Below, one piece after another: positions 18,839 to 61,364 of a stretch of DNA of 64,000 nucleotides. Origin of the DNA: Gemmatimonadaceae bacterium (GTDB lineage Bacteria > Gemmatimonadota > Gemmatimonadetes > Gemmatimonadales > Gemmatimonadaceae); assembly GCA_016742275.1 (NCBI GenBank), contig JACVCD010000011.1, positions 62,001 to 126,000 on the forward strand, in the 5' to 3' direction. Made by a program: the position numbers and the translations under genes. The notes beneath the pieces are model-generated. The model saw nothing but the letters and a program-made list of their open reading frames with translations, was not told where the DNA came from and did no database searches. Within the stretch, counting starts at the first letter, position 1. Each line of letters opens with the position of its first letter.

Positions 18839-18900
18839 GACACAAAAGCAGAGCGGGGCATCGCGATCATGATTCGCGATGCCCCGCTCTTATTTGTGTC
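18839..18900. terminator. bidirectional terminator hairpin after ffh
   Basis: A perfect 17-bp stem (18850-18866 with 18874-18890, loop of 7) is rich in G and C and is flanked by a further 8-bp repeat (GACACAAA at 18839-18846 with TTTGTGTC at 18893-18900). T-rich tracts follow the stem in both directions. It lies between the ends of two convergent genes and should terminate both. Confidence 0.85.
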
Positions 18901-25298: not shown

Positions 25299-25865
25299 AT
25301 GTCGATTTCCCGCACGCTGGTTCGCGGCGCTACTGGCTTTGCCTATGCGCTTGCTGCCGTGTCTGTTCTCTCTGTTTCTGCTTCCGCGCAGGCCGCGCCG
25401 CGTCAGGCGCCTGCTTCACCGCGTGACTCCTTGTCGGCCTCCATCGGCGGCGCTGACATCAAGGTCAACTACGGTCGCCCGTCCAAGCGCGGCCGCGTGA
25501 TCTTTGGTGGCCTCAATGACATGAAGTGGGGCATGGTGTGGCGCACGGGCGCCAACGAAGCCACACACTTCACCACCAGCAAGACGCTCGATTTTGGTGG
25601 CAAGGTCGTGCCGGCCGGCACCTACACGCTGTTCACGCAGCTCGAAGAGAACGGCAAGTGGGAACTGATCGTGAACAAGCAGACGAAGCAGTGGGGCACC
25701 GCCTACGACAAGGCGCAGGACCTCGTCCGCATTCCGATGACGGTGACGAGCAATAATGCCGTCGTGGAAATGATGCAGATCACCGTGACGCCGGCCGGCA
25801 AGGGCGGCGAGATCACGGTGGCGTGGGATAACTACAAGGCCGTGGCGGGGTTTACGGTCAAGTGA
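25299..25865 (+). CDS. exported DUF2911 family protein
   Basis: Small exported protein of 188 residues with a signal peptide (about 1-30, ASAQA cleavage region). The mature part carries the DUF2911 pattern: KVNYGRPSKRGRVIFG near the beginning, WRTGANEATHF, VPAGTYTLFT and IVNKQTKQWGTAYD, ending in a beta strand. The family is common in Bacteroidota and Gemmatimonadota; its role is unknown. The start at 25299 is chosen because it gives a normal signal peptide and lies just after the terminator of the upstream gene. It converges on ggt across an inverted-repeat element. Confidence 0.87.
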   Translation: MSISRTLVRGATGFAYALAAVSVLSVSASAQAAPRQAPASPRDSLSASIGGADIKVNYGRPSKRGRVIFGGLNDMKWGMVWRTGANEATHFTTSKTLDFGGKVVPAGTYTLFTQLEENGKWELIVNKQTKQWGTAYDKAQDLVRIPMTVTSNNAVVEMMQITVTPAGKGGEITVAWDNYKAVAGFTVK

Positions 25866-25880
25866 TCTGAGACTCGAGTC

Positions 25881-25978
25881 GACTTACGACTCGACACTTT
25901 CACTCAAAACTCAAAGCTGACCGAATCCTGAGGATCGGTCAGCTTTGAGTTTTGAGTAGAAGTGTCGAGTTCTAAGTC
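25881..25978. repeat. inverted-repeat element A (GGTCAGCTTTGAG family)
   Basis: Almost the whole gap between DUF2911 and ggt is one long inverted repeat. The main arms are 25889-25924 and 25935-25970 (34 of 36 positions pair), with an outer repeat GACTTA at 25881-25886 and TAAGTC at 25973-25978. The right arm matches the left arm of element B near 59.5 kb at about 38 of 45 positions, so both derive from a common unit. Here the two units start near the centre and point outward. The unit contains the iterated word ACTCAAA with 8-bp spacing. Confidence 0.85.
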
Positions 25979-25981
25979 TCC

Positions 25982-27766
25982 CTAGTTGCCCCGCGCGCCC
26001 GCATCCCGGTCTCTCGGATCCGGCGCACCAAGTCGCTCGCCGGTCTTGGCATCAATGGCAATCGAATGTGCAGTGCCTTGCTGACCACCCACGCGCACAT
26101 CGTGGCCCATCGCACGCAGCGCTTCGAGCGTCGAAGGTTCAAATCCTTCACGCTCCACCGTGAGTCGATTCGGCAACCACTGATGATGAATGCGTCCGGC
26201 ATTCACGGCCTGCTGCACCGGCATGTCGAATGCAATGATGTTGAGCACCACCTGCATCACGGTGTTGATGATGGTGCGACCGCCTGGACTGCCCACCACC
26301 GCAACCAGCTTGCCATCACGCGCCACGATGGCTGGCGTCATGCTCGACAACATGCGCTTGCCGGGCTGCGCGATGTTCGGTGCCGTGCCAATCAGTCCAG
26401 TGCTGTCGGTGAGACCAGGCTTGCCGTTGAAGTCGCCCATCTCGTTGTTGAGCAGGAAGCCGGCACCTTCCACCACCGCACCGAGTCCGTAGCCGGCTTC
26501 GAGGGTGTACGTCACTGACACGGCGAGACCATCCTTGTCCACCACCGAGTAGTGCGTGGTCTCGTCGCTTTCGTAGCCCTGTGTCACGTCTGCCGGCGAC
26601 GATGGCGATGCCTTGTCCGCGGCAATTGTCGCACGAAGCGAATTCGCGTAAGGCTTGCTCATTAGACGATCAATCGGCGGCTTCGAGAAATCCGGATCGC
26701 CGAGATACATGGCACGGTCGCGGAACGCGCGGCGCATGCTTTCCGCCAGCCAATGCACATACTTCGGTGAATTGTGGCCGGCTTCCTTGAGCGGAAACCC
26801 TTCGAGGATATTCAGCATCTCGATCATGGCCACACCGCCTGAACTCGGTGGCGGCATGGAGATCACTTCGTAGCCATTGAACGTGCCGCGCACGGCGGCG
26901 CGCTCCTTCGCTTCGTATTCCGCGAGATCCTTCTCGGTGATCAGACCACCGTGCTTCCGCATTTCGGCTGCGAGCAGCGAAGCCGTCGTACCCTTGTAGA
27001 AACCATCGCGGCCACCATCGCGAATACGGCCCAGCGTACGACCGAGGTCTGCGAGGATCAGACGTTCACCGGCAGCATAAGGCGAACCGTCGACCTTGTA
27101 GTATGCGGCTCTTGATGCGGCGTATTGCTGGAGCTTGGTGCGCGCACCGGTCAGGGACGAGGCCAAACCCGTTGGCACCATGAAGCCGGTGTCCGCGAGC
27201 GCTGCGGCCGGCGAAACCAGATTTTTCCAGCCCGCCTTGCCGTACTTCCGATGCGCGAGCTCAAACCCCGCCACGGTACCCGGCACGCCAACCGACACAT
27301 GCGAGTTGTGATGAATGCGCGAGGAGTATGTCCCCGTGCTATCGGTGAACATCGTGGGCGATGAAGCCCCTGGTGCCCGCTCGCGGAAGTCGATGGTCGT
27401 GGTCCGCCCATTGGGGAAGCGCACCACCATGAACCCACCTCCGCCAATGTTGCCGGCTGTGGGGTACGTGACCGCCAGGGCGAAACCGGTCGCGATCGCG
27501 GCATCGATGGCGTTTCCACCGGATGCCAGCACCTGACTGCCCACCTGACTGGCGATATCGCTGGCCGACACGACCATGCCGGATCGGGCCCGGATAGCCT
27601 CTGTGGGTCTCGGCGGCATGGCAGCACCAGCGGCCTGGGCATCGAGCGACCCGGGTGCGGACAGGGCCAGGAGGCCAGCCAAAGCCGGAACGGTCAGAAC
27701 CGAGTGGCGCTGAACCGAGTGGCGCTGAACCTGTCGACGGGGCAGGGGCGAGGGCGCGATGGGCAT
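25982..27766 (-). CDS. ggt: gamma-glutamyltransferase
   Basis: Exported, self-processing N-terminal nucleophile hydrolase of about 594 residues that cleaves gamma-glutamyl bonds such as in glutathione. A basic N terminus and hydrophobic segment ending in SLDAQA form the signal peptide. Family motifs: GGNAIDAAIATGFALAVTYP, GNIGGGGFMVV, FRERAPG, the autocleavage site DETTHYSVVD whose second threonine becomes the nucleophile, and GSPGGRTIINTVMQV. The start ATG at 27766 follows from the signal peptide; the open frame reaches further. The leader contains a tandem QRHSV duplication (27699-27728 at DNA level). It could supply cysteinylglycine and glutamate to salvage. Confidence 0.92.
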   Translation of the reverse strand: MPIAPSPLPRRQVQRHSVQRHSVLTVPALAGLLALSAPGSLDAQAAGAAMPPRPTEAIRARSGMVVSASDIASQVGSQVLASGGNAIDAAIATGFALAVTYPTAGNIGGGGFMVVRFPNGRTTTIDFRERAPGASSPTMFTDSTGTYSSRIHHNSHVSVGVPGTVAGFELAHRKYGKAGWKNLVSPAAALADTGFMVPTGLASSLTGARTKLQQYAASRAAYYKVDGSPYAAGERLILADLGRTLGRIRDGGRDGFYKGTTASLLAAEMRKHGGLITEKDLAEYEAKERAAVRGTFNGYEVISMPPPSSGGVAMIEMLNILEGFPLKEAGHNSPKYVHWLAESMRRAFRDRAMYLGDPDFSKPPIDRLMSKPYANSLRATIAADKASPSSPADVTQGYESDETTHYSVVDKDGLAVSVTYTLEAGYGLGAVVEGAGFLLNNEMGDFNGKPGLTDSTGLIGTAPNIAQPGKRMLSSMTPAIVARDGKLVAVVGSPGGRTIINTVMQVVLNIIAFDMPVQQAVNAGRIHHQWLPNRLTVEREGFEPSTLEALRAMGHDVRVGGQQGTAHSIAIDAKTGERLGAPDPRDRDAGARGN

Positions 27767-27943
27767 GAACTGGGCGGGAAGACGGGTTGAACGGATGGAC
27801 CGGGGTAGGTTAGCTTCAAAGGCTGCCCGGTAACGGGCAACCCGGGTGCATGCCGGAAGTGCCGGCAATGCGAGGAGCCCGGTGGTGGGCCGACCTGATT
27901 CCAACGTCGCCCCCGCAACAAGCTAACTGCCTGAGAGATCCCC
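27767..27943. promoter_or_regulatory. divergent region ggt / rpsP with leader hairpin
   Basis: The 177-bp gap carries the promoter of the ribosomal operon. A possible sigma-70 pair is TTGAAC at 27787-27792 and TTAGCT at 27810-27815 with a 17-bp spacer, although the -10 match is weak. Just downstream is a small stem, TGCCCG-GTAA-CGGGCA (about 27824-27839), in what would be the 5' leader. Both are suggestions from sequence only. Confidence 0.35.
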
Positions 27944-45400: not shown

Positions 45401-45420
45401 TTTGGTGTTGCTCTGTCGGT

Positions 45421-45590
45421 TGGTTTGAACAGCGCACGCAGAGCCGCGGAGGAACTGCAGAGAGCAGAGGGAGGACATCCGCGTACGAGCGGAATGCCGC
45501 TCAAATGAAAAACGCAGAGGGCTGGCAGCACTCGCCAATCCCTCTGCGTCTCTTTGTTTCTCTGCGCCTCTGCGTGCGCAGTTCAAACCA
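45421..45590. repeat. inverted-repeat element C (GGTTTGAAC...GCAGAG family)
   Basis: Outer arms 45421-45452 and 45559-45590 form an inverted repeat starting GGTTTGAAC and running through GCGCACGCAGAG. Inside are an ACGCAGAGGG / CCCTCTGCGT hairpin (45512-45521 with 45540-45549) and a smaller AGCGG/CCGCT stem (45488-45501). The right half is built from the word CTCTGCG at 45542, 45560 and 45568 and the variant CTCTTTG at 45550. The same outer 22 bp are found in element D near 53.0 kb. It fills the space between the convergent susD and aldolase genes. Confidence 0.83.
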
Positions 45591-45611
45591 GCTAGCGGTG
45601 CAACAACGGTA

Positions 45612-52935: not shown

Positions 52936-52970
52936 GAGCCGCAGAGTGGCTGGCCGCGGCTCTTACTTGG
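52936..52970 (+). terminator. terminator after ankyrin gene
   Basis: GAGCCGC (52936-52942) pairs with GCGGCTC (52956-52962) and is followed by TTACTTGGTTT. It lies seven bases behind the stop codon. The first bases of element D overlap its T-rich tail. Confidence 0.6.
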
Positions 52971-53087
52971 TTTGAACTGCTCACGCAGAGAAAAAGAGAA
53001 CGCGGAGTCGCAGAGAACTGCAATCCAGTTGGATTTGCTTCTCTGCGACTCCGCGTTCTCTTTTTCTCTGCGTGAGCAGTTTGGACC
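52969..53087. repeat. inverted-repeat element D (GGTTTGAAC...GCAGAG family)
   Basis: Arms 52969-53017 and 53039-53087 pair at 46 of 49 positions, including 43 uninterrupted base pairs; the 21-base centre contains a further imperfect AATCCA/TGGATT stem. The only mismatches are near the outer ends. Outer sequences match those of element C (GGTTTGAACTGC, CACGCAGAG), but the inner sequence differs. The word GCAGAG or GCGGAG occurs three times in each arm. Located between convergent ankyrin and FmdB genes; a further CCTCTGCGTCTCTG copy follows at 53094. Confidence 0.9.
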
Positions 53088-53109
53088 GACTCGCCTCTGC
53101 GTCTCTGAT

Positions 53110-53882: not shown

Positions 53883-53898
53883 ACTGAACGGTAAACAG

Positions 53899-54012
53899 CG
53901 GAAGCCAAACGGGCGGAAGCGAGTTGACGGAAGCAAGAGAGCGGAAGCGAGGAGTCGACCCCTCGCTTCCGCTCTTTCGCTTCCGACCCTCTGCTTCCGC
54001 TTCAGGCTGCCG
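53899..54012. repeat. inverted-repeat element E (GCTTCCG, 14-bp period)
   Basis: The gap between ridA and the NHL gene is an inverted repeat in which the heptamer CGGAAGC recurs at 53899, 53914, 53928 and 53942 (spacing 15, 14, 14) and its complement GCTTCCG at 53965, 53979 and 53993, with a degenerate copy at 54006. The inner part (GCGGAAGCGAG / CTCGCTTCCGC, 53941-53951 with 53962-53972) pairs perfectly. Outermost AAACAGCGG pairs with CCGCTGTTT. A related one-sided block lies at 57194. Confidence 0.85.
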
Positions 54013-54021
54013 CTGTTTGCT

Positions 54022-55351: not shown

Positions 55352-57181
55352 ATGAAGGTACTCTCCCGCCTGAATCTGTCCAGAGAATCGTTGCGGATTC
55401 CGCATCGCCTGCCCGTCATCGTGATGACTGTGCTGGCGCTCCTTTGCTCGTGTACGCTTCTCGCGCCGCTGCTCCAGGCGCATGAAGTGCCGCGACATGT
55501 GGGCGTGCGCACCTTCGTTGCGACACTTCCCGATCGTGTGCGATTGCTCGTCCAGATTCCCGTGGACGCCGTACGCGATGTGGACTTGCCGCTCACCGCA
55601 CGAGATGCGCTGGACGCGCAGCGCGCGGCCCCATTCCTTCGTGACGCGGCGCGCCTGTGGGTGGCGGATGGTATCGATGTGCGTGACGGTTCACGCGACC
55701 TTGGACGACCCACGATCATCGGTGTCCGTGCGGCTCTGCCGAGTGATCGGGCTTTTGAGGACTACGCGTCGGCCATGCGTGCCATTCAGTCGGCGCCATA
55801 TGACTCTACCATCGACGTTCCGCATGGACAGCTGCGTCTCGATGTGTGGCTCGAATGGCCGGTCACCACGCCGGTCACCGACCTCGTGCTCGACCCGCAG
55901 TGGGCGCATCTCGGTGTTCGCACAACGACGCTGATGCAATTGGTGCTGCCCGATGGACAGGTGCGGCCCTACGCCTTCGAAGGTGATCCGGGAACGGTGC
56001 GGCTCGATCCCCGGTGGTGGCATGCTGCATGGCACTTCGTGGTTGATGGCATGGCGCACATGCTCGGCGGGCTCGACCACCTGTTGTTTGTGCTGTGCCT
56101 GATTCTGCCGTTTCGTCAGTTGCGTCCGCTCATCGGGCTGGTGACGGCATTCACCGTGGCGCATTCACTGACACTGGTGGCCTCCGCATTTGGCTGGGCG
56201 CCACAAGCCGGATGGTTTTCGCCACTCGTTGAAGTGTTGATCGCGGCCTCGATCGTATTTATGGCGGTCGAGAACATGCTTGGCGCGAATCTCGAACGTC
56301 GGTGGCGTATCGCGTTTGCGTTTGGGCTCGTGCACGGCTTCGGTTTTTCCTCTGCGTTGCAGGACTCGTTGCAGCTGGCGGGCAGTCATATGCTCGTGTC
56401 ATTGGCTGCGTTCAATCTCGGTGTCGAACTCGCTCAGGTGCTCGTGTTGATAGTCGCCGTTCCGCTCGTTGATCGTGTGTTCACTCGTGCTGTTCCGGAG
56501 CGCGCCGGTATTCTGATTGCTTCGGCGTTCATCGCGCACGAAGCGTGGCACTGGATGGGGGATCGTGCGACGGATTTGCGTGCGCAGCCCTTCAGCTGGC
56601 CGGTGCTCGATACCGCGTTCCTGCTGGTCGTGATTCGTTGGAGTATGGCGTTGCTGGTGGTGTTGGGCTTGTCGTGGTTGATGGACGCCTTCATGACGCG
56701 TTGGGTGCGTCCAAACACGCCCGGTGCAGCGTCGCGCGCACAGGGTGTTGCAAAGGCCGCGGTGACCGCGTTGCTCCTGGCTGGTGTGTTGATTGCACCA
56801 ACGCAATCGATCTCCGCTCAAGCGGCACCACGCACCACCAAAGCCGGCGCCTACACTGCGGAGCAGGCCACCAAGGGCCGTGAAGTCTTCAACAGCATGT
56901 GCCTCGGCTGTCATACGACGGCATCGCACATGGGCGCTGCGTTTGAACTCAAATGGTTCGGCCGCCCGCTGTTTGATCTCTACGACTATCTCAGCCAAGC
57001 CATGCCCAAGACCGCACCGGGCACGCTCACGGAAGACGAATACGTCTGGGTGACGGCGTATATCCTGAGGCTGAATGGCATGCCTCCTGGGAAAGTCGAA
57101 CTATCGCCCGAACCCGCGTGGCTCAAGGCTGTGCGAGTGGACACCACACTGCGCGGTGTTGGCGGCAAGAGCACGCCCTAA
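55352..57181 (+). CDS. HupE/UreJ-like membrane protein fused to cytochrome c
   Basis: Protein of 609 residues. After a signal/anchor (about 1-45, LLAPLLQAHE) there is an exported beta-rich domain (about 45-225), then a membrane domain of the HupE/UreJ_2 type (about 225-455) with GMAHMLGGLDHLLFVLCLIL, PFRQLRPLIGLVTAFTVAHS, LVHGFGFSSALQ and EAWHWMGD, histidine-rich in the membrane segments as for metal carriers. After one more helix (TALLLAGVLIA) a periplasmic cytochrome c domain carries CLGCH (about 523) and a possible methionine ligand in QAMPKTAPG. The metal-carrier plus cytochrome fusion is unusual. The next gene, a PQQ-type dehydrogenase, follows after 104 bp. Confidence 0.85.
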   Translation: MKVLSRLNLSRESLRIPHRLPVIVMTVLALLCSCTLLAPLLQAHEVPRHVGVRTFVATLPDRVRLLVQIPVDAVRDVDLPLTARDALDAQRAAPFLRDAARLWVADGIDVRDGSRDLGRPTIIGVRAALPSDRAFEDYASAMRAIQSAPYDSTIDVPHGQLRLDVWLEWPVTTPVTDLVLDPQWAHLGVRTTTLMQLVLPDGQVRPYAFEGDPGTVRLDPRWWHAAWHFVVDGMAHMLGGLDHLLFVLCLILPFRQLRPLIGLVTAFTVAHSLTLVASAFGWAPQAGWFSPLVEVLIAASIVFMAVENMLGANLERRWRIAFAFGLVHGFGFSSALQDSLQLAGSHMLVSLAAFNLGVELAQVLVLIVAVPLVDRVFTRAVPERAGILIASAFIAHEAWHWMGDRATDLRAQPFSWPVLDTAFLLVVIRWSMALLVVLGLSWLMDAFMTRWVRPNTPGAASRAQGVAKAAVTALLLAGVLIAPTQSISAQAAPRTTKAGAYTAEQATKGREVFNSMCLGCHTTASHMGAAFELKWFGRPLFDLYDYLSQAMPKTAPGTLTEDEYVWVTAYILRLNGMPPGKVELSPEPAWLKAVRVDTTLRGVGGKSTP

Positions 57182-57193
57182 CCTTCCGTCAGT

Positions 57194-57243
57194 TCGCTTC
57201 CGCTGTTTCGCATCCGTTTTTTCGCCTCCGCTTTTCGCTTCCG
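57194..57243 (+). repeat. tandem TCGCNTCCG words (one-sided E-type repeat)
   Basis: The nonamer TCGCNTCCG occurs four times at 57194, 57208, 57222 and 57235, spaced 14, 14 and 13 bp, the period of element E. There is no inverted partner arm, and the flanking genes are co-directional, unlike the other elements. It lies in the leader of the PQQ-type dehydrogenase gene. Confidence 0.75.
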
Positions 57244-57285
57244 CCGTCAATCGCTTTCCCCCTCCTCTCTCCTCCCGGAGACCAC

Positions 57286-59475
57286 ATGACAAGAAGCGGC
57301 ATCACGAAATTCGCTGCATTGGCCGCCATCAGCGCCACACTCGGTGGTGTGTTGCTGACGCAGGTGTCCTCGTCACGCGCACAACCCGGCAAGCCGCTCG
57401 TGCGTGGCAATGCCCACGGGGAATGGCGGCACTGGGGCGCGGATCAGTGGAGCACGCGCTACTCGCCGCTCGATCAGATCAACGCGTCCAACTTCGACTC
57501 GCTTCAGGTCGCGTGGGAGTGGAAGGGCGGAGCATTCGGAAAGGACGAGTACTATCGCACGACGCCGCTCTATGCGAACGGTCGGATCTTCACGGTCGCG
57601 AGCACACGTCGTGTGGCGGCAGCGCTCGATCCGTCGACCGGCGAAACACTGTGGATGTACCGACTGGACGAGGGCATTCGCTGGCAGAAGGCGCCGCGTC
57701 AGTTTGCCGGTCGTGGTCTTTCGTATTGGACCGATGGCGTCAAGGAGCGCATCCTGCTCGTGACGCCGGGCTATCATCTCGTCTCACTTGACGCGAAGAC
57801 CGGCAAGCCCGACGCCGCATTCGGCAAGACCGGTGTGGTCGATCTGATGGAAGGTCTCGGATACCCGATGGTGAAGCTTGCCGTCGATGACTCGGGTCCG
57901 CTCATCATCTCCGATGCCGCGCCGTATCGCGAAGCCAAGCCCGGCGAAACCTGGGATCCCGTAAAGAAGATCGGCGCCGACGGCAGCGTTGGCATCGCGT
58001 CGCAGATCGCCGCGAGTTCGCCGGCCATGGTGGTGGGCAATGTGCTCATCGTCGGCAACTCGTCGATTCACGGCTACTACCCGATTCGCGCGACCAATCC
58101 CATTGGCACCGTGCGCGGGTTTGATATCGCAACGGGTCGCCTGCTGTGGAAGTTCAACCTCGTGCCGCAGCCCGGCGAATATGGCGCGGAGACATGGAAA
58201 AATGGCTCCAAGCAGGGCACCAAGGGTGTCGGCAAAACCGATGCGTGGGCGCCATTTGCCGCCGACGAAGCACTGGGCCTCGTGTACATCCCCGTCGGCA
58301 TGCCGCTCATGGATGAATACGGCGGACATCGCCCGGGCAACAATCTGTTCGGCAATTCACTTGTCGCACTCGACGCCAAGACAGGCAAGCGGAAGTGGCA
58401 CTTCCAGATGGTGCACCATGACATCTGGGACTACGACACACCGATGGCGCCCAATATCATGGACGTCACCATCGATGGCCGCGCGCGCAAGATCGTGGCG
58501 CAGCCGACGAAGCAAGGCTGGCTCTACGTGTTCGATCGTGTCACCGGCGAACCGATCTGGCCGATCGAAGAAAAGCCTGTACTGGCGAGTGGTGTGCCGG
58601 GTGAGCAGTCCTCACCGACGCAGCCCATTCCGAGCAAGCCCGCGCCGTACTCGCAGCAGGGGCTCGTCGAATCCGATCTGATCGACTTCACGCCGGCCAT
58701 CAAGGATTCGGCGTTGGCGTTGGCCAAGAAGTGCCGCATGGGACCGTACTACATTCCGCCCGCTGCCGCCGACGGCAAGGACAGCAGTGGATTCCGTTGT
58801 GCGTGGTATGCACCGGGCGCGAGCGGTGGTGTAAACATCGATGGTGGCGCCACACACGATCCCGAGACGGGCATGATCTACGTCGCCAGCATCACGGGAC
58901 TCAGCACCACCACGCTGCTCAACGATCCGTGCTCGGAGTTTGCCTACAGCTCACCGGCCAGTAACTGCGGTTTGATCGGCGCACTGCCAACCCCCGCTGG
59001 ATACAAGAAGCCGGAGAACGTCGGCTTTGGTGGACGTGCATCGGGTTCAATGATCGGTGGTATCTCGATCGCCAAGCCCAAGGAGTATGGTGGCATCACA
59101 GCGTACAGCATGAAGACCGGCGACAAGGCGTGGTGGATGCCCAACGCGGGATTCATCCGTCAGACCAGCCGCGATCCGCTCTTCGCTGGTGTGAACATTC
59201 CGCCGCTTCCCGGACGTGGACAGGCGCAGGCCATCACCACCAAGACACTCGTGATTTATGGCACTGGTCGTTCCGGCGGTCTGCCGGGTGAACCGCCCAA
59301 GCTGTTCGCGCTCGACAAGGCAACCGGAAAGCAGGTTGGCGCACTGCAGATCTCGGCCAAGACAACGGCCGTGCCAATGACATTCCTGCACAAGGGTCAG
59401 CAGTACATCGTGTTCGCGACAGGCGCGGAAGAGAATACGAGTTTGGTGGCGCTCAGGTTGCCGGTGAAGAAGTAG
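57286..59475 (+). CDS. PQQ-dependent dehydrogenase (quinoprotein)
   Basis: Exported quinoprotein of 729 residues, resembling glucose/quinate/alcohol dehydrogenases with an eight-bladed propeller. A signal peptide (about 1-32) precedes EWRHWGADQWSTRYSPLDQI, the family N-terminal motif. The active-site HHDIWDYDTPMAPN segment, with the catalytic aspartate, and the tryptophan-docking repeats LDAKTGKRKWHFQ and DRVTGEPIWPIEE are visible; the C-terminal half has PGRGQAQAITTKTLVIYGTG. It oxidises a sugar or alcohol in the periplasm and passes electrons to a cytochrome or quinone; the cytochrome domain of the preceding gene is the likely partner. ATG 57286 has GGAG upstream. Substrate unknown. Confidence 0.88.
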   Translation: MTRSGITKFAALAAISATLGGVLLTQVSSSRAQPGKPLVRGNAHGEWRHWGADQWSTRYSPLDQINASNFDSLQVAWEWKGGAFGKDEYYRTTPLYANGRIFTVASTRRVAAALDPSTGETLWMYRLDEGIRWQKAPRQFAGRGLSYWTDGVKERILLVTPGYHLVSLDAKTGKPDAAFGKTGVVDLMEGLGYPMVKLAVDDSGPLIISDAAPYREAKPGETWDPVKKIGADGSVGIASQIAASSPAMVVGNVLIVGNSSIHGYYPIRATNPIGTVRGFDIATGRLLWKFNLVPQPGEYGAETWKNGSKQGTKGVGKTDAWAPFAADEALGLVYIPVGMPLMDEYGGHRPGNNLFGNSLVALDAKTGKRKWHFQMVHHDIWDYDTPMAPNIMDVTIDGRARKIVAQPTKQGWLYVFDRVTGEPIWPIEEKPVLASGVPGEQSSPTQPIPSKPAPYSQQGLVESDLIDFTPAIKDSALALAKKCRMGPYYIPPAAADGKDSSGFRCAWYAPGASGGVNIDGGATHDPETGMIYVASITGLSTTTLLNDPCSEFAYSSPASNCGLIGALPTPAGYKKPENVGFGGRASGSMIGGISIAKPKEYGGITAYSMKTGDKAWWMPNAGFIRQTSRDPLFAGVNIPPLPGRGQAQAITTKTLVIYGTGRSGGLPGEPPKLFALDKATGKQVGALQISAKTTAVPMTFLHKGQQYIVFATGAEENTSLVALRLPVKK

Positions 59476-59486
59476 TCAGGCCGACA

Positions 59487-59583
59487 GATCGGTCAGCTTT
59501 GAGCTTTGAGTAAAAGTGGGGAGTTGCGAGTACGGTTGACTCGCAACTCCCCACTTTTACTCAGGACTCAAAGCTCACCGAAT
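59487..59583. repeat. inverted-repeat element B (GGTCAGCTTTGAG family)
   Basis: Arms 59490-59531 and 59539-59580 form an inverted repeat with about five mismatches and a 7-base centre. The left arm begins CGGTCAGCTTTGAG and continues to AACTC-type words, matching the right arm of element A at about 38 of 45 positions. In element B the units start at the outer ends and point inward, the opposite of A. It fills the gap between convergent PQQ-dehydrogenase and NHL genes. Confidence 0.85.
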
Positions 59584-59602: not shown

Positions 59603-60655
59603 CTATTTCCTTTCGTATCTCTTGAGCGCCTTATCTCCAACTTCCGCCCCATAAATATTCCCGGCCGCATCAACCGCCACTCCCTCGGCGCTGCTGGTGC
59701 TGGGCGGCTTGGGAGCCGGATCGGGAATGAATGCCGTCACCTGACCCGTACGCGCACTGCCAATGCGAATACCGCGCTTCCACGCACTGTGCGGCGGGCT
59801 CACTGAGCCTGATTCGGAGTCCGCCGCGTACAGCACATCATTCTTGTCGATCCAGAGTCCGCTGATGCGGCTGAACTGATACCACGTCGCCTGCACGGCA
59901 AACGTATTGGGATCAACAATCAGCAATCGATCGTTGCCACGATCCGCGATGAACAGGCGTCCGCGTGAGTCAAATGCGAGCGCGTGCGGCTGATCGAGCT
60001 GCCCATCGCCCTTGCCCCAGCTGCCCCATGTGCGCTTGAGCTTTCCACTCTTGTCGAACACCAGAATGCGCGCCGTGGCGCCTGCGCGCGATGAGTGGCC
60101 CTCGGCAACATAGATATCGCCATTGGCCGCGGTGATCACCGCGTTGGGCTGCCAAAAGAAGCTCGTGTCGCGTCCGCCACCGACACGGCCCAGTGTAAGC
60201 AGCACGTCGCCCTTGGGGCTGAATTTTACGATCTGATGCCCACGCGGCGGTGGGGCCGGCGCATTGGGATCGATGGGGGGTGTGCCGCCGGTGCAACTGC
60301 AGTCCACAACCCAAATGTTGTTGTCGCGATCAACGTGAATGCCGTGCGGTGACATGATCATGCCGGCGCCAAAGCTCGCGACCAATGCACCGCTGGCGTC
60401 GAACTTGAGCACACTCGGCAGCGACGACTGCGCGCAGCTGTTCACGCCGCAGCGTTCAGCCACCCAGATGCTCTTGCCATCCTTATCGATGGCCACGGCA
60501 CTCGTGGAACCCCAGGTGCGTCCGGCGGGCATCTTGGCCCAGCCTTCAACTGTTCGGTAGGGATTGGGAAGATCATTGACCGGCGCCATGTCGGCCGTCG
60601 ATTGCGCGGCGAGCGGCGAGACTGACACCGCCAGCAGAAGGGCAAGGGTGCGCAT
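59603..60655 (-). CDS. exported NHL-type beta-propeller protein, second copy
   Basis: Protein of 350 residues with a signal peptide (about 1-18, PLAAQ). The propeller resembles that of the NHL protein at 54 kb: AVAIDKDGKSIWVAERCG, SPHGIHVDRDNNIWVVDCSC, ANGDIYVAEGHSS, QLDQPHALAFDSRGRLFIAD and AEGVAVDAAGNIYGAEVG. Cysteines in the first blades may form disulfides. Start ATG 60655 gives the signal peptide; a hairpin (60685-60702) lies just upstream. Both propellers surround the quinoprotein genes and converge on or diverge from them, so a supporting role in the same periplasmic process is possible. Confidence 0.85.
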   Translation of the reverse strand: MRTLALLLAVSVSPLAAQSTADMAPVNDLPNPYRTVEGWAKMPAGRTWGSTSAVAIDKDGKSIWVAERCGVNSCAQSSLPSVLKFDASGALVASFGAGMIMSPHGIHVDRDNNIWVVDCSCTGGTPPIDPNAPAPPPRGHQIVKFSPKGDVLLTLGRVGGGRDTSFFWQPNAVITAANGDIYVAEGHSSRAGATARILVFDKSGKLKRTWGSWGKGDGQLDQPHALAFDSRGRLFIADRGNDRLLIVDPNTFAVQATWYQFSRISGLWIDKNDVLYAADSESGSVSPPHSAWKRGIRIGSARTGQVTAFIPDPAPKPPSTSSAEGVAVDAAGNIYGAEVGDKALKRYERK

Positions 60656-60794
60656 GCGGAATGGGAGGAGGCGGGAGGTAGGAGGCAGCTTGGAAAAGCT
60701 GCGCGTTTGCACGCCGCAGGGCAAATGCACCGGAAAACCTGGATGAAAATCTGATTGGAGTTGCGATGCGTCCCTCGTCTGGCGAGCGTTCGCC
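60656..60794. promoter_or_regulatory. divergent region NHL / small lipoprotein gene
   Basis: A 139-bp gap with two hairpins: GCAGCTT (60685-60691) pairs with AAGCTGC (60696-60702), and GCGTTTGC pairs with GCAAATGC across the next 10 bases (about 60703-60728). Promoters for both genes must lie here; none is clear. Confidence 0.3.
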
Positions 60795-61364
60795 ATGCGT
60801 CATGACTCATCGCACCGAAATTCGCACCGTATGCGGGCCGCCACCATTGCTGTGTTGGCCTTGGTCGCGTCCGGATGCGGCAAAACGACCGACGCCACGC
60901 CCCGTGATGTGGCCATGCAGTTCTATGTGACGCTCGAGGCGGCGGGCGTCCGTGGCATCCCCGAGGCGCGCGCCATGCCCGCGCTCGAGCCCTACCTCAC
61001 CAGCGAACTCACGACGCGGCTCAAGGAAGCGGCCGCGTCGGCCGATCCACAGCGCAGCATCTTCAGTGGCTTGTACGAGGGCTACTCCACCTACTATGTG
61101 CAGGACACGCGTCTGCTTGGCGATACAGCTCTGGTGATCATGGGCTTCTCCAACATGACACAGAAACCGGCCGTGAAGTGGAGCGACACCCTCGTCGTCA
61201 TCAAGGGACCGCCGTCATGGCGTGTTGCCGATCTGCGTTATGGCGGCAACTGGGACTTCGGCTATCGCGGTACGCTGACGGGCGTGCTCACACGCGCTGC
61301 TTCTTCCACGTCCCACGACGGAACATCAGCCACGCCACCAGCGCCAGCAACGAATACGCGCTGA
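60795..61364 (+). CDS. small lipoprotein of unknown function
   Basis: Exported lipoprotein of at most 189 residues, with lipobox in ALVASGCGK. The start could be ATG 60795 or ATG 60831 (MRAATIAVLAL); the latter gives a more typical signal peptide. The mature part is alpha/beta with a first half VAMQFYVTLEAAGVRG, TSELTTRLKEAAASAD and a second half ending in VADLRYGGNWDFGYRG, resembling small exported domains of the DUF3828 or lumazine-binding sort, but I cannot assign a family. Its last 77 bases overlap the end of the convergent MATE gene. Confidence 0.75.
   Translation: MRHDSSHRNSHRMRAATIAVLALVASGCGKTTDATPRDVAMQFYVTLEAAGVRGIPEARAMPALEPYLTSELTTRLKEAAASADPQRSIFSGLYEGYSTYYVQDTRLLGDTALVIMGFSNMTQKPAVKWSDTLVVIKGPPSWRVADLRYGGNWDFGYRGTLTGVLTRAASSTSHDGTSATPPAPATNTR

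Follow-up and report, generated by a model that had tools for sequence, protein, structure and literature searches.

Where repeat families lie at the ends of bacterial genes, transposition mediated by RAYT enzymes is the usual explanation. In all bacteria studied, convergent gaps are the preferred place of stem-loops (PMC1590033); REPs favour convergent and tandem gaps and have GTAG/CGTC tags and short stems of 5-13 bp (PMC3733652). Bidirectional terminators, in which one hairpin near both stop codons is shared, have been described as 4A/4T structures in firmicutes (PMC1590033) and as gene-end inverted repeats in E. coli (PMC6060812). Convergent-gap stem-loops, REPs and bidirectional terminators as such are known already. 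The window analysed here, a stretch of 64,000 nucleotides, is part of a 4.57-Mb Gemmatimonadaceae genome (G000) and holds two long inverted repeats, elements A and B, that resemble each of these systems in part.

Elements A and B have in common with REP/BIME/REPIN sequences and their RAYTs that short inverted units lie outside genes in both polarities, are enriched at convergent 3′ ends, and form species-specific families and arrays, but here the arms are 43-60 bp long, GTAG/CGTC tags and RAYT are absent and pairs are almost never split. Bidirectional intrinsic terminators of low-GC firmicutes and E. coli are likewise A-rich on the 5′ side and T-rich on the 3′ side, whereas here the stems are several-fold longer, a clean outside T-tract is missing and the repeated words recur at different loci. 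Paired DNA uptake sequences of Pasteurellaceae and Neisseria are also species-specific words that form intergenic stem-loops as inverted pairs; however, they number about 1000 copies (PMC1590033) and are scattered, genes included, while GTCAGCTTTGAG has 5 copies in the 4.57-Mb genome and the strong hairpins described below are all intergenic and use several unrelated vocabularies in this one genome. MITEs and RAYT-associated families with long TIRs have conserved inverted arms, a variable centre and lineage-specific bursts in common with the present elements, which unlike them are bound to gene 3′ ends; neither a target-site duplication, looked for by eye at copies in genome G020, nor a related transposase was seen. 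The present elements depart from known ones in the length of the stem, the lack of tag and RAYT, and replacement at the same site by unrelated families. Literature searches found nothing on these Gemmatimonas hairpin families.

Structure and position of elements A and B

Direct reading of positions 25933-25977 (GATCGGTCAGCTTTGAGTTTTGAGTAGAAGTGTCGAGTTCTAAGT) against 59487-59531 (GATCGGTCAGCTTTGAGCTTTGAGTAAAAGTGGGGAGTTGCGAGT) gives 7 mismatches in 45 positions, and the 38/45 identity between the right arm of A and the left arm of B claimed by the sequence-only reading is thereby confirmed; a repeat finder lists these stretches as a direct repeat of 39 nt (90%). Chance is excluded as the source of this likeness, since A as query matches B (E 3e-8) and about ten further sites in the genome, and the further copies anticipated from the letters do exist, among them a second B-type element at G000:C13:177517-177596. 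The unit starts with GATCGGTC, ends in AAGTC/GAGT and pairs over approximately 43 bp. The opposite polarity first noticed was also borne out: in A the unit reads from the centre towards the outside, and in B from the two outer ends towards the middle.

Both elements are inverted repeats with 91% complementarity between the arms, which enclose loops of 10 nt in A and 7 nt in B (in the latter with arms 59489-59531 and 59539-59581). RNA folding of both strands of A and B yielded −70 to −73 kcal/mol (z −13.7 to −15.0), and none of 200 shuffles (0/200) folded as well as A or B. Searching the window with Rfam 15 gave 0 matches above gathering score. Element A takes up nearly all of a 116-nt convergent gap (25866-25981, stops at 25865 and 25982) and B lies within one of 127 nt (stops at 59475 and 59603). 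This convergent position, and the membership of both elements in a genome-wide set with several unrelated vocabularies, had been absent from the initial interpretation. The features of the window are collected in Table 1.

Table 1. Hairpins and neighbouring genes in the window, by position in the window
Feature	Position	Strand	Basis and remarks
Convergent-gap hairpin, terminator-like GC core with outer arms	18839..18900		gap C21:80824-80916
DUF2911 protein gene	25299..25865	+	PF11138, E 7e-45; stop codon 15 nt upstream of A
Element A, long inverted repeat, units outward, convergent gene ends	25881..25978		repeat finder, folding
Left unit of A (reverse complement of the unit)	25881..25924	-	repeat finder
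Loop of A (ATCCTGAGGA)	25925..25934		unit begins at 25933 in the sequence-only reading
Right unit of A	25935..25978	+	repeat finder; 38/45 identity with left unit of B
Gamma-glutamyltranspeptidase gene, start uncertain	25982..27904	-	PF01019, E 7e-159; convergent, end 3 nt past A
Convergent-gap hairpin, CGCAGAG vocabulary	45406..45605		repeat finder; arm word 24x in this genome
Convergent-gap hairpin, CGCAGAG vocabulary, perfect 43-bp arms	52967..53089		repeat finder, census
Convergent-gap hairpin, CGGAAGC vocabulary	53890..54021		repeat finder, census
PQQ-type dehydrogenase gene, start uncertain	57118..59475	+	PF01011; end 11 nt ahead of B
Element B, long inverted repeat, units inward, convergent gene ends	59487..59583		repeat finder, folding
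Left unit of B	59487..59531	+	repeat finder
Loop of B	59532..59538		repeat finder
Right unit of B	59539..59583	-	repeat finder
NHL-repeat protein gene, start uncertain	59603..60796	-	PF01436; convergent, end 19 nt past B

Long hairpins at gene ends across the genome

A census was made in 1.49 Mb of G000, about one third of the genome, with home-made gene calls from a simple hexamer model; gaps of 40-400 nt were folded and a hairpin with z<-5 was taken as strong. Counting hairpins that are not independent when they belong to one family, strong hairpins were present in 50/81 convergent, 27/386 tandem and 2/128 divergent gaps (Fisher, convergent share: 4e-24 against divergent and 2e-26 against tandem). 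All strong ungapped hairpins in the same sample were intergenic (34/34; 19 convergent, 15 tandem, 0 divergent), and shuffled sequence contained 0. For convergent hairpins the median distance between stem and stop codon is 11 nt on one side and 6.5 nt on the other, and 15/17 tandem hairpins begin at most 31 nt from the upstream stop.

With the same handling, 10/18 convergent gaps of E. coli had z<-5, a share similar to that of G000 and expected of terminators, but stems of at least 25 bp occupied only 2/18 there compared to 36/81 in G000 (p 0.008). A hairpin in a convergent gap is thus ordinary and it is the length of the stem that is unusual. The genome examined from another family of Gemmatimonadota had such stems in 0/13 convergent gaps (p 0.001 against 36/81).

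The hairpins are made of short iterated words with variable spacers, and several such vocabularies coexist in this genome: ACTC/ACTCAAA (A and B), GAGGAT, CGGAAGC, CGCAGAG, CGTAAAG, CACGGA, CTGTGGGC and CAGTG-type words. The convergent gap at G000:C21:149758-149830 consists of about five perfect 14-nt copies of GCTACTCGGTAGTC, each partly palindromic, and the AT-rich gap at G000:C26:46275-46546 differs from the other vocabularies in its repeated CCGCCATATACGG and CCACAGGA words.

Composition bears on what these hairpins may do. An A-rich 5′ arm with a T-rich 3′ arm was found in 41 hairpins versus 13 with the reverse bias (p 1.8e-4; 10 versus 1 in genome G020), a bias that weakens when each family is counted once and from which the left arm of B, itself T-rich, departs. 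A strict terminator scan returned nothing at A or B because a clean T-run beyond the whole stem is missing. A looser scan detected a two-strand core in 8/36 hairpins including A and B, a share only slightly higher than the 12.8% at which hairpins with shuffled arms pass, and for that reason a canonical core in A and B is not claimed as proof of termination. The genome has an ordinary Rho gene, so termination need not depend on hairpins.

It must also be noted that the genome encodes a second Rho-like protein of about 690 aa (G000:C15:183416-185482; L095:3416-5482) with Rho_RNA_bind and ATPase domains and a long Arg/Pro/Asn-rich N-terminus. This protein was also found in G001, G020 and G022 and not in G031, the genome without long convergent hairpins.

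The proximity to stop codons on both sides, the avoidance of divergent gaps and the A-rich 5′ and T-rich 3′ arms point to bidirectional 3′-end hairpins, and a role in bidirectional termination or at the 3′ end is most likely, judged by position and composition. Elements A and B would belong to a genome-wide class of such long hairpins. Transcripts from either convergent gene would form the same long stem few nucleotides past the stop codon, and this stem would most likely end or pause transcription from both sides and most likely cap or protect the 3′ ends of both mRNAs. At some loci, most clearly lpd, a GC-rich terminator-like core lies inside outer inverted arms.

Replacement between species and evolution of the arms

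The position of the hairpin recurs in relatives and its words are replaced wholesale between species, as shown at three orthologous sites. The gap of A, in a comparison in which the neighbouring gene of some species is not the same ortholog, holds two AACTGATCAGTT hairpins in G001 and G022, a ACCCGAAACTCCCC hairpin in G004, a CACAGAG hairpin in G021 and B-like GAGTGAAAGTGGCGAGT hairpins in G014 and G019, and in other species has short hairpins or measures 34-46 nt. The gap of B contains long, near-perfect and mutually unrelated hairpins in G020, G021, G004, G006, G009 and G035 and is only 18-21 nt in G005, G008 and G017. At the 3′ end of lpd, a core of the GGCCCGA...TCGGGCC type is common to G000, G001 and G022 and the arms that wrap it differ; wrapped cores were also seen in G002 and G010/G014, and G017 and G020 have only a short GC-rich hairpin. 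G035, which belongs to another family, has an almost perfect hairpin made of AAGTAAGAAGGGAGAAG words behind its PQQ dehydrogenase ortholog (L179), and the phenomenon thus extends beyond the genus.

Homogenisation of the arms by template switching, or strong compensatory selection, predicts higher complementarity within than between elements. This was not seen, as the values were 0.725 within and 0.724 between for Y elements and 0.882 and 0.880 for X elements. Variation in the A family falls at fixed positions (5, 10, 23-24 and 29-31 from the centre) and the others hardly vary. In G001 and G022, whose flanks are about 90% identical, the elements are kept at the same places, and in 12 locus pairs the only differences at the level of elements were gains or losses of array units. 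The elements have diverged less than their flanks (112/1857, 6.0%, compared to 2898/34641, 8.4%; p 3e-4), and 33 single changes that break pairs stand against 2 double compensations. Arms without covariation and the excess of pair-breaking changes leave strong selection on each base pair unsupported; the pattern would rather fit a conserved primary sequence or a recent common origin. Slower change at paired (5.0%) than at unpaired sites (9.2%) is not claimed, since only one of the two sequences served for folding and the count is biased by this.

Multiplication of the arms and the likely nature of the elements

The polarity and spacing of units were counted by a mismatch scan across the examined loci of several genomes. 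The outward arrangement of A accounted for 95/107 placements (about 48 pairs in G000, G001 and G022), compared to about three elements of B type (B itself, L214, which is the second copy on C13, and L185) and about two solitary units. The A-type unit is essentially confined to these three genomes, and a pattern scan revealed a Gemmatimonadaceae MAG that bears many. A second family with the core AACTGATCAGTT has 53 outward placements and few inward, one of the latter at the B gap of G001. The third family, ACAGCGGGGGGAACACNGA, is present in 21+21 copies in G020, probably G. aurantiaca T-27, nearly all as plus then minus within about 35-240 nt, with conserved arms and variable centres, and in 0 copies among 40 other genomes. 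Placement counts in the three families thus identify pairs of one polarity as the rule, with B type as the exception in the A/B family. On balance, these numbers do not support the proposal that mobility resides in the unit and not in the pair: the pair is mainly what is multiplied. Of the accompanying expectation of many solitary and paired copies in both polarities, the two polarities were seen, and solitary units were scarce.

A hairpin centre in G020 holds an IS3-type element with two overlapping ORFs, DDE-type by eye (L236:14990-16420; G020:C1:134990-136420), and a second hairpin at C1:3406266-3407678 is probably similar. The near-equal separations of the arms (1394 and 1396 bp) suggest that the IS targets hairpin tips.

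Arrays offer a possible origin of B. Two A-type elements in G001 are 179 nt apart with a Y element in between, and tandem X-Y-X arrays with an array unit of 179 bp are present. B is the inverse pairing of the unit used in A, and its order of arms is the one expected at the junction of neighbouring A elements, where a right arm is followed by the next left arm; we only infer this derivation, since a direct A-A dimer was not seen. Arrays appear to grow by tandem duplication. Of two species compared, one has the 179-bp X+Y unit in duplicate and the other only once (G001:C42, L116, versus the MAG locus L195), and L200 and L286 differ by one 86-bp Y unit.

One may ask whether the elements are MITE-like or otherwise selfish inverted repeats that preferentially insert next to the 3′ ends of genes and do not benefit the host, their terminator traits being incidental. 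The species-specific burst of 42 arms in fixed polarity in G020, with its conserved arms and variable centres, and the unrelated families at the gaps of A and B would agree with this. We nevertheless consider it unlikely, since no target-site duplication was seen by eye at the G020 copies, no empty site occurred in the 12 locus pairs of G001 and G022, elements diverge less than flanks, and a single insertion cannot produce an lpd core wrapped on both sides.

In another reading the half-unit is what moves: a single arm would be copied onto one flank or the other of a hairpin or terminator already in place, and the polarity would come out A-like or B-like accordingly. The older lpd core, wrapped on both sides by arms that differ between species, both polarities in two families, and arms of one element that are no closer to each other than to those of different elements leave room for such movement of half-units. 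The idea is distinctly doubtful given the great rarity of solitary units, the 95 to about 5 split in polarity and the nearly invariable polarity of the G020 arms, and we know of no enzyme for copying of this kind. Finally, the view that a RAYT (Y1) transposase mobilises the unit as a REP, with pairs formed in both polarities, is very improbable and largely refuted for this genome: the likeness to BIMEs holds in that the units are dispersed, extragenic near convergent 3′ ends, reused both ways and arranged in X and Y arrays, but PF01797 (Y1/RAYT) had 0 matches in G000, G001, G022 and G020 while E. coli and control genomes were positive, a RAYT profile search of the genome and 40 relatives found none wherever the unit is common, the ends of the arms lack GTAG or CGTC and their stems are far above the 5-13 bp of tagged REPs (PMC3733652), and about 48 A-type pairs face about two solitary units.

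The reading that we hold to be probable is that A and B are bidirectional 3′-end or terminator hairpins with outer arms that consist of lineage-specific repeats independent of RAYT. What the hairpins look like and where they lie was observed, as were the two polarities, the species-specific families, replacement at three orthologous sites and the absence of Y1/RAYT; termination, protection of 3′ ends, how the arms spread and where B came from are inferred. The arms are lineage-specific interspersed families of short words that succeeded each other at shared sites in different species, and they would have multiplied as inverted pairs by means other than RAYT.

One may further speculate, and only tentatively, that Gemmatimonas species maintain an unrecognised RAYT-independent process by which terminators at gene ends become enclosed in inverted arms of species-specific words, the entire set being exchanged from time to time. 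Position and hairpin would then be inherited and the sequence would not, and each species would have a dialect, possibly read by a dedicated factor such as the second Rho-like protein.

A similar outcome to that of RAYT transposition, namely species-specific inverted repeats at convergent gene ends in both polarities, is thus encountered without RAYT and with stems several-fold longer. Unrelated long hairpins at one orthologous gap in sister species provide a natural series on how terminator-associated repeats spread, and on whether selection keeps the structure irrespective of sequence.
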